A stretch of 64,000 nt of DNA from Candidatus Roizmanbacteria bacterium (GTDB lineage: Bacteria > Patescibacteriota > Microgenomatia > UBA1406 > GWC2-37-13), in contig JAAZNM010000007.1 of the NCBI GenBank assembly GCA_012798265.1, positions 62,001 to 126,000 of the forward strand. The letters run 5' to 3'. How positions within the stretch are numbered: the stretch's first letter is position 1; each line of letters begins with the position of its first letter. The notes beneath the pieces are model-generated. The model saw only the letters and a program-made list of their open reading frames with translations, ran no database searches and was not told the origin of the DNA. Shown piece after piece: positions 2,461 through 4,494 of the stretch. The position numbers and the translations under genes were made by a program.

Positions 2461-2469
2461 TGTTATAAT
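2461..2469 (+). promoter_or_regulatory. Extended -10 promoter for the glmS leader
   Basis: TGTTATAAT is a perfect extended -10 (TGn plus TATAAT), 3 bp after the exonuclease stop. It has no convincing -35, as expected for an extended -10. Transcription would begin near 2476 and carry the ribozyme-like leader ahead of glmS. Confidence 0.6.
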
Positions 2470-2504: not shown

Positions 2505-2690
2505 AGCGCGTGGTCCGCCGTTTTTGGCGGAAGACGAGGAAGAAGGGTCTGACCGAAATCAGACAATCGGACCCCTACCGATTTAAGGTGGGGAGTATCT
2601 GCGGAAACCTTCAGGTTAAGCGTTATTAACCTAAAGTGTTTGTTTTAAAGTCTTAAGGCAACTTAAGAACGGAAAAAAACAAACACGGTA
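2505..2690 (+). ncRNA. glmS ribozyme (glucosamine-6-phosphate-activated self-cleaving riboswitch), expanded variant
   Basis: The leader lies directly upstream of glmS and matches the glmS ribozyme fold when compared from memory with the Bacillus and Thermoanaerobacter examples. The elements are the cleavage-site context A2505|GCGC, a P2-like hairpin (CCGCC/GGCGG), the conserved GACGAGGA (2533-2540), a helix GAAGG (2542-2546)/CCTTC (2608-2612) closing a segment with GCGG (2601-2604) able to pair with the 5' CGC, then P3 (AGGTTAA 2613-2619/TTAACCT 2626-2632). After P3 come an 11-bp P4 (2636-2646/2676-2686) and a P4.1 hairpin capped by GCAA (2652-2667). The two-strand internal loop between P4 and P4.1 (AAAGT and AACGGAA) resembles known ribozymes. 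The core is enlarged by two extra hairpins (2548-2564 and 2572-2593). Predicted role: GlcN6P-triggered cleavage represses glmS. Confidence 0.78.
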
Positions 2691-2736: not shown

Positions 2737-4494
2737 ATGTGCGGTATATTTGCTTATACTGGAGAAAGCCGTGAAAGCGGCCGGTTAATTGTCAACGGTC
2801 TCCGTTCGCTTGAGTATCGAGGCTATGATTCCTGGGGAGTCGCTCTTAAAAAAAACAACGGGCAAATCTATCTGAAAAAGGCTGTCGGAAAAATCGGCCA
2901 GGCGATTCTCCCCGACACTAATTCATCAATCGGTTTTGGACACACCCGTTGGGCAACCCATGGCGGAGTAACGGAAAAAAACTCCCACCCCCATCACGAC
3001 TGTCAAAAAAAAATCTTCGTTGTTCATAACGGCATCGTTGAGAACTTTGCCCATATAAAAAATGTCTTGTCAAAATCCGGACACCATTTTATCTCAGACA
3101 CCGATACCGAAATCATCGCTCATCTGATTGAGCAAAAACTAAAAAAACAAAAAAGTAGAAGTCAGGCGGTACTCAAAACTTTTAATCAAATTACGGGCAT
3201 GAACGCTCTGATTGTGTTTTTTCCCGACTATGAAGAATTTTATGCAATAAAAAACGGCTCTCCAATCGTTTTTGGCAAAAATAAAAAGGAAAAAATTATC
3301 GCCTCCGATGCATCGGCAATTATCCCATACACGAAAAAAGTCTACTTTCTCGAAGATAATGAACTTTTAATCGTTACAGGCAAAGAAGAAAAACTTATAG
3401 ACAAACAAAACAAAAATGGAACTATTAGATATCTTAACTTGTCTTATGATAAGCAAGATGTTGAAGTTGGGTCATACCCCAACTTTATGTTCAAGGAGAT
3501 TAGTGAACAGCCAAAAGTCTTAAGAGATATTATTAATACTCAACGAGGCAATTTGGGAAAAACCAGCCAGATAATCAGAAAAGCCCGCGGCAGTTATTTA
3601 ATTGGTTGTGGCACCGCTTATTACGCGGCTATCTCCGGAAGCTATCTTTTTGCGAAAATCGCTAAACGCCATATTGACGCCACTATCGGCTCCGAGTTCG
3701 GTTACCTGACCGACTTTCTGACGGAAAAGTCCTTGGTGATTGCCCTTTCTCAATCCGGAGAAACTATCGATACCATATCGGGAATAAAAAAAGCCCGAGA
3801 AAAAAAAGCTAAAATTATGGCCATAACAAACGTTTTGGGATCGACTCTTTACCGGATAAGCGATTATAGAATCCTTCTGCAAGCGGGACCGGAAAAATGC
3901 GTCCTGGCAACCAAGTCGTTTACGGCCAAAATTGCCGTCCTCTACCTTTTATCGCACTGTCTAAACGGTAGCTACGATCAAGGAGTAAACCAAATAAAAA
4001 AAGCTATCGGGGAAACTGAGAGGTTAATAAAATCTACGCAGATTAAAGAATTAGCCAATCGTTTAAAAAATAGTCAGCACATCTACGTTCTAGGCCGAGG
4101 GGTTTCATATCCAACCGCTCTTGAATCGGCTCTAAAAATCAAAGAGGTTTCCTATATCCATGCCGAAGGTTTTGCCTCAGGCGAACTTAAACATGGCGTT
4201 ATCGCCTTAATCAAGAAAGGCACACCGGTCATCGTCTACAATCCCACTGACGAAACCTATAAAGACACTCTGTCATCTGCCTATGAGATGAAAGCACGAG
4301 GAGCTTATATCATCGGTATAGCCGAAAAAAACAGTCCGGTCTTTGACGAATTCATTCAGGTAAACGACTGTCAAGAGGCGGTTATTATTCCCAACGTAGT
4401 CGTCGCCCAGCTTTTGGGTTATTATCTGGCTGTCAGTAAAGGTTATGACCCTGACAAACCGAGAAATCTGGCAAAAAGCGTCACGGTCAAATAA
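2737..4494 (+). CDS. glmS: Glutamine--fructose-6-phosphate aminotransferase
   Basis: GlmS makes glucosamine-6-phosphate from fructose-6-phosphate and glutamine, the first committed step to UDP-GlcNAc and peptidoglycan. The protein begins MCGIFAYTG, so processing exposes the Cys nucleophile of the class II glutamine amidotransferase domain (about residues 2-215, with FGHTRWATHG). Two SIS sugar-isomerase domains follow (about 270-400 with CGTAYYA and SQSGETIDT; about 440-575 with GRGVSYPTALE), ending in the conserved tail LAKSVTVK. The length of 585 residues is slightly short of the usual 600-610. It stands alone behind the ribozyme-like leader, which suggests product-feedback control, and meets the convergent transporter gene 5 bp downstream with no terminator between. 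Confidence 0.98.
   Translation: MCGIFAYTGESRESGRLIVNGLRSLEYRGYDSWGVALKKNNGQIYLKKAVGKIGQAILPDTNSSIGFGHTRWATHGGVTEKNSHPHHDCQKKIFVVHNGIVENFAHIKNVLSKSGHHFISDTDTEIIAHLIEQKLKKQKSRSQAVLKTFNQITGMNALIVFFPDYEEFYAIKNGSPIVFGKNKKEKIIASDASAIIPYTKKVYFLEDNELLIVTGKEEKLIDKQNKNGTIRYLNLSYDKQDVEVGSYPNFMFKEISEQPKVLRDIINTQRGNLGKTSQIIRKARGSYLIGCGTAYYAAISGSYLFAKIAKRHIDATIGSEFGYLTDFLTEKSLVIALSQSGETIDTISGIKKAREKKAKIMAITNVLGSTLYRISDYRILLQAGPEKCVLATKSFTAKIAVLYLLSHCLNGSYDQGVNQIKKAIGETERLIKSTQIKELANRLKNSQHIYVLGRGVSYPTALESALKIKEVSYIHAEGFASGELKHGVIALIKKGTPVIVYNPTDETYKDTLSSAYEMKARGAYIIGIAEKNSPVFDEFIQVNDCQEAVIIPNVVVAQLLGYYLAVSKGYDPDKPRNLAKSVTVK

Follow-up and report, generated by a model that had tools for sequence, protein, structure and literature searches.

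The glmS ribozyme employs GlcN6P as a cofactor and reduces glmS expression when it cleaves (PMC2258182 and PMC6154101). In the structural literature (PMC7125110, PMC11602151), P2.1 is a pseudoknot formed by the CGA of ACGAGG with UCG. P2.2 comprises positions 2-5 of the cleavage strand paired with positions 53-56, positions 7 and 52 form a pair, and the core helices are connected by single-stranded segments. The cofactor pocket includes the P2.1 3' strand (PMC7125110). A literature search, which covered few subscription papers, yielded no glmS ribozyme paper for CPR, Patescibacteria or Saccharibacteria. The riboswitch literature found for Patescibacteria does not, in the parts accessible, have glmS as its subject.

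The window, a stretch of 64,000 nucleotides of a Candidatus Roizmanbacteria contig (JAAZNM010000007.1, positions 62,001 to 126,000), was analysed for such a ribozyme. The sequence makes it very probable that the glmS leader of this tiny CPR bacterium is a self-cleaving glmS ribozyme, and one with an enlarged core that recurs widely in the phylum. Positions 2494-2691 on the plus strand gave a full-length match to RF00234 in cmscan (59.5 bits, E 3.4e-11, cut-off 37), the only one in the 954-kb genome. The match ends 46 nt before the ATG of glmS (2737..4494, plus strand), which encodes glutamine-fructose-6-phosphate transaminase (TIGR01135, 616 bits, cut-off 418), i.e. it lies in the 5' leader of this gene. 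The RNA of 2500-2700 folds with a z of -5.28, and none of 200 shuffles was as good. A sequence-only reading of this DNA had recognised an enlarged-core glmS ribozyme in a CPR-like genome and had suggested an RF00234 search. The significant match 5' of a confirmed glmS, with the cleavage site at 2505/2506 in the alignment, bears this out. Upstream, a candidate extended -10 promoter element, TGTTATAAT (2461..2469, plus strand), was noted from its letters; a transcript starting from it would begin roughly 30 nt ahead of the cleavage site. It is a weak candidate, because a consensus scan for promoters gave no sigma-70 site.

P1, P2, P2.1, P2.2, P3, P3.1, P4, P4.1 and the cleavage site are all present in the window. 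The published core numbering was placed on the window by our own reading of the letters, and all features below lie on the plus strand unless stated otherwise. Cleavage is predicted from the RF00234 alignment between A(-1) and G(+1) (2505..2506). The P2.2 5' strand CGCG (2507..2510) has its partner in TGCG (2600-2603), and G2512 pairs with C2599. The P1 hairpin TCCGCC/GGCGGA (2514..2531) is predicted by RNA folding and covaries. It is followed by the catalytic core motif ACGAGG (2534..2539), which is invariant in 20 aligned sequences and whose CGA (2535-2537) is the P2.1 5' strand. The P2 5' strand GAAGG (2542..2546) pairs with CCTTC (2608-2612), as seen from pairing and covariation. AATCGG (2565..2570) contains the P2.1 3' strand TCG (2567-2569) and ends in G2570, where the standard core has an A. 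Finally, 2599..2607 comprises C52, the P2.2 3' strand and the AAA typical of enlarged cores. The P2.1 pairs are formed in 20/20 aligned sequences; P2.1 never varies and therefore cannot covary. In 72 relatives, P2.2 pair 5-53 is formed in 48 (38.5 expected; 0/5000 shuffles as high), and pair 4-54 is at chance level with 62 versus 61.3 in shuffles.

The periphery follows the known order. The P3 hairpin (2613..2632) carries the loop CGTTA (2621-2625), which is complementary to TAACG (2689-2693). Their pairing forms P3.1, in which the loop of P3 is joined to the 3' tail. A loop/tail complement of at least 5 nt was found in 38 of 70 sequences, compared to a mean of 7.6 and a maximum of 17 in 500 tail-swap trials, which supports the predicted P3.1 pseudoknot. 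P4 (11 bp, 2636..2686) surrounds P4.1 (2651-2668) with its GCAA tetraloop, both predicted by RNA folding. Thus, the cleavage context A2505|G2506, ACGAGG, GAAGG/CCTTC, P3, the 11-bp P4 and the GNRA-capped P4.1 are all found where the earlier reading had placed them.

What sets this ribozyme apart is its core. Where RF00234 has three model positions, the window has 40 bases, hence the term 'enlarged core'. The Rfam consensus shows the enlarged stretch as a hairpin, which is not the pseudoknot P2.1 seen in published structures. Two additional hairpins were defined by covariation and folding. Hairpin X (2547..2564), with P2 on one side and the 3' strand of P2.1 on the other, has a 6-bp stem and the loop CCGAAA and is flush with P2. 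Hairpin Y (2571..2596) occupies the linker between P2.1 and P2.2, and its stem is interrupted by the bulged A2594. Both had been proposed before, at 2548-2564 and 2572-2593; they are real and conserved, with actual extents one to three bases longer. They do not, as had been assumed, replace one short hairpin of the Firmicute ribozymes, but occupy two single-stranded linkers that flank the P2.1 3' strand. Among 41 parsed cores with both hairpins, the X segments have a mean fold z of -3.25 (z below -1 in 38) and the Y segments a mean fold z of -3.68 (below -1 in 40). For covariation, alignment A1 was used, which holds 20 of the 42 both-hairpin sequences, picked for moderate length. Double-sided pair changes were found at 6/6 pairs of X and 5/7 pairs of Y. 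Across the whole structure, 88.9% of the A1 cells pair with a covariation score of 0.572, compared to 69.7% and 0.204 in shuffles (0/500 reached this score); with the partners shifted by one base, the score fell to at most 0.27. These pairing and covariation counts are biased toward the structure, because it was derived from the same A1 sequences. Next to Y, GA/AGUA was also considered as a loop-E-like motif; this was set aside, since an extension of Y by an A-U and a C-G pair with a bulged A fits more rows (18/20 and 17/20 paired).

Two side observations concern these hairpins. Three ribozymes upstream of glmS (L138, L150, L155) have hairpin X only and retain UCGA. On the minus strand of the window (2547-2583), X and part of Y resemble terminator stems with T-rich tails (2 found versus 0.6 in shuffles), probably a by-product of the hairpins.

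The ribozyme is widespread in the phylum. RF00234-positive genomes were found in 23/379 of the phylum, 51/372 of the class, 25/83 of the order and 22/72 of the family. These draws overlap and jointly yield 77 loci. In 75 of them, the match is followed by GlmS coding sequence on the same strand; of the exceptions, L033 stops at the contig end and L023 (G135) has no glmS. The match in L023 seemingly lies within a coding sequence, and this locus was dropped before typing. Among the remaining 76 loci (73 parsed by script, L046, L050 and L059 by eye), 42 cores carry X and Y, 5 only Y and 29 neither. Of the 22 family groups represented among these ribozymes, 17 include cores with both hairpins.

A covariance model of the enlarged form, R1, was built from A1. 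It detected 21/379 genomes of the phylum, 62/372 of the class and 32/83 of the order. Together with RF00234, excluding L023, 26/379, 63/372 and 33/83 genomes are positive. R1 alone detected the ribozyme in 21 genomes, and GlmS lies downstream at each of these 21 loci. A relaxed Rfam rescan of 20 of these loci recovered RF00234 in 6 (3 over the cut-off) and nothing at E 1 in 14. Rfam under-calls enlarged glmS ribozymes in CPR, and the public model misses many of them: a contig of Candidatus Woesebacteria RIFCSPLOWO2_01_FULL_39_10 (G677:C2, MGHC01000002.1; L044 = L126), a bacterium of the same class as that of the window, scores 85 bits with R1, but RF00234 detects nothing there up to E 0.1. For comparison, six glmS loci were taken from the plasmid collection, one of which (L084, Priestia) has no ribozyme match. 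On the standard ribozymes, R1 gave 23-38 bits (L083, L079, L080, L081), and L082 had no listed match. In viral contigs, 49 pattern matches of the enlarged motif were obtained, none of them with R1, and taken as chance. A plasmid search for the ribozyme DNA returned a single record, a short chance match. Among 18 ribozyme-negative glmS loci of the order, none matched R1, and an Rfam scan of 16 of them gave no glmS-ribozyme match. Since 63/83 genomes of the order have a glmS over the TIGR01135 cut-off and 33/83 a ribozyme, glmS leaders with and without a ribozyme are about equally common in this order. Directly in front of one ribozyme-free glmS, a region (L226:1369-1489) weakly resembles Wolbachia sRNA 46 (35 bits, E 0.0022, below the cut-off of 65), probably by chance.

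Homology, structure, location and covariation of this RNA, together with the concerted core changes and the RNase J gene described below, point with high confidence to a GlcN6P-responsive, self-cleaving glmS ribozyme of an enlarged form in which X and Y probably brace the core. From these observations, we infer ligand, cleavage, decay route and bracing as follows. Accumulating GlcN6P, which GlmS produces, would enter the preformed pocket, whereupon the RNA would cleave itself at A2505|G2506. The downstream piece with a 5'-OH and the glmS message would then be degraded, probably by RNase J, and glmS turned down. Collins et al. reportedly found in 2007 that RNase J removes the 5'-OH cleavage product. 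The genome has an RNase J gene (506 bits, cut-off 400); this is weak support, because the gene is nearly universal in the family (over the cut-off in 64/72 genomes). GlmM- and GlmU-like genes score 151 and 152 bits, below the curated cut-offs, so that the use of GlcN6P is only partly traced in this genome.

The most likely role of the hairpins X and Y is to brace the double-pseudoknot core, with the chemistry left unchanged; X perhaps stacks on P2 and Y on P2.1. Their presence goes along with changed core letters. UCG is followed by G in 37/41 both-hairpin cores versus 2/31 others, and CGG by AAA or AGA, again in 37/41 versus 2/31. In 10 independent pairs on the GlmS tree that differ in X and Y, each letter change went the same way in 8.5/10 on average and never in reverse (sign test p 0.004). 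In the enlarged form, the pair closing the P2.1-P2.2 linker would shift from A-U to G-U; judged from the letters, the G after UCG can still close the linker as a wobble with U. The joint between P2.2 and P2 becomes AAA. A sub-form was seen upstream of glmS in L135, L145 and L149, where GAGUAGCGG replaces GAGUAUCUGCGG, the cleavage strand reads GCGCAAU and the P2.2 side is shortened. The altered core letters, and the position of both hairpins on either side of a strand that belongs to the cofactor pocket (PMC7125110), could also mean that X and Y do more than brace and alter the switch itself, either in its ligand affinity or by adding a second input, for example from a protein or a different metabolite. 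This is rather improbable, as neither loop nor stem sequences of X and Y are conserved, which argues against sequence-specific recognition.

Less likely still, the RNA could be a relic glmS ribozyme or a non-cleaving GlcN6P aptamer, with the inserts as signs of core decay. Its RF00234 score is well under that of a Firmicute ribozyme (142 bits in Anoxybacillus), and in the P4 internal loop the 3' strand reads ACGGAA instead of the RF00234 consensus ACAaAG, with the P4 and P4.1 helices present. However, neither the catalytic ACGAGG nor P2.1 nor the cleavage strand is disrupted, and in X and Y strong compensatory change is seen across distant genera, which decay would not maintain.

The sequence-only reading had left the choice between transfer and a wider distribution of a structural variant. 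The latter part holds, with X and Y in 42/76 cores, and the former, if taken as a recent event, is not supported. A quick tree of 81 GlmS proteins, with SH-aLRT values as its only support, separates 75 rows of the phylum from five Firmicute and Fusobacterial proteins (support 100), and the GlmS of the window pairs with that of L013 (support 99) within the phylum's own group. The single exception is L022 (G039), which has an enlarged-core ribozyme (L022:1501-1699) and a GlmS that groups with Firmicutes and Fusobacteria; in this case, leader and gene may have different histories. L022 is the one locus that favours a recent transfer of the ribozyme from Firmicutes, for which there is otherwise very little room: the enlarged core occurs in 17 of the 22 ribozyme-bearing family groups sampled, and none of the five Firmicute/Fusobacterial comparison ribozymes has X/Y inserts. 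A recent one-off transfer is judged unlikely from the sequences, because the order has the ribozyme in 33 and glmS in 63 of 83 genomes and the GlmS proteins of the phylum group together. Enlarged and standard forms are intermixed on the tree (18 changes of X+Y versus 27.4 when shuffled), so that both hairpins were repeatedly lost or gained, or moved between lineages.

Hardly credible is a regulatory pseudoknot competing with P2.1, for which the X loop CCGA (2553-2556) would pair, as proposed earlier, with the complementary TCGG (2567-2570): this pairing is not conserved in relatives and was rejected, because CCGA is found in the X loop of only 1/41 enlarged cores, that of the window itself (2/41 counting G-U pairs), and TCG is the invariant 3' strand required by P2.1. 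A longer complementarity, AATCGG with CCGATT (2565-2570 with 2578-2583), was also set aside; CCGA is present in the Y segment of only 7/41 cores, and the pairing would break P2.1.

The interpretation as an enlarged, self-cleaving ribozyme places GlcN6P feedback by a self-cleaving RNA in CPR. It also supplies dozens of naturally occurring glmS ribozymes whose core has been rebuilt; these amount to a natural experiment on which letters and joints of the core can change together in one of the best-studied ribozymes. With considerable reservation, cores with both X and Y may be regarded as an old and distinct glmS subclass, the commonest and perhaps the ancestral one in Patescibacteria, in which the pocket strand lies between two hairpins, the core letters were reset in step and the requirements for ligand or magnesium might differ. 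It would then be unlike the Deinococcus-Thermus variants, the closest precedent. McCown, Roth and Breaker reportedly described in 2011 glmS variants of Deinococcus-Thermus with additional stems in the catalytic core. Going by this description, the likeness consists in additional stems inside the core, and the X+Y architecture may be the same and may already have been described.

Within the phylum, the compact ribozymes of family group f31 (12 loci: L002-L007, L010, L012, L014-L017) precede the same gene. In contrast to that of the window, they comprise only 130-140 nt and have neither X nor Y; several of them, inspected by eye, seemingly lack P4.1, which leaves P4 with a large A-rich loop and the ribozyme with a compact periphery. 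With the standard RF00234 ribozymes of Anoxybacillus (L083), Acetoanaerobium (L079) and Fusobacterium (L081), the ribozyme of the window shares the location 5' of glmS, the cleavage context, the order from P1 to P4.1, ACGAGG, the double-pseudoknot core and P3.1. It differs from them by the added hairpins X and Y, by UCGG instead of UCGA, by the AAA joint and by its cleavage strand, which reads GCGCG in the window and mostly GCGUG in the phylum, whereas the standard ribozymes have GCGCC.
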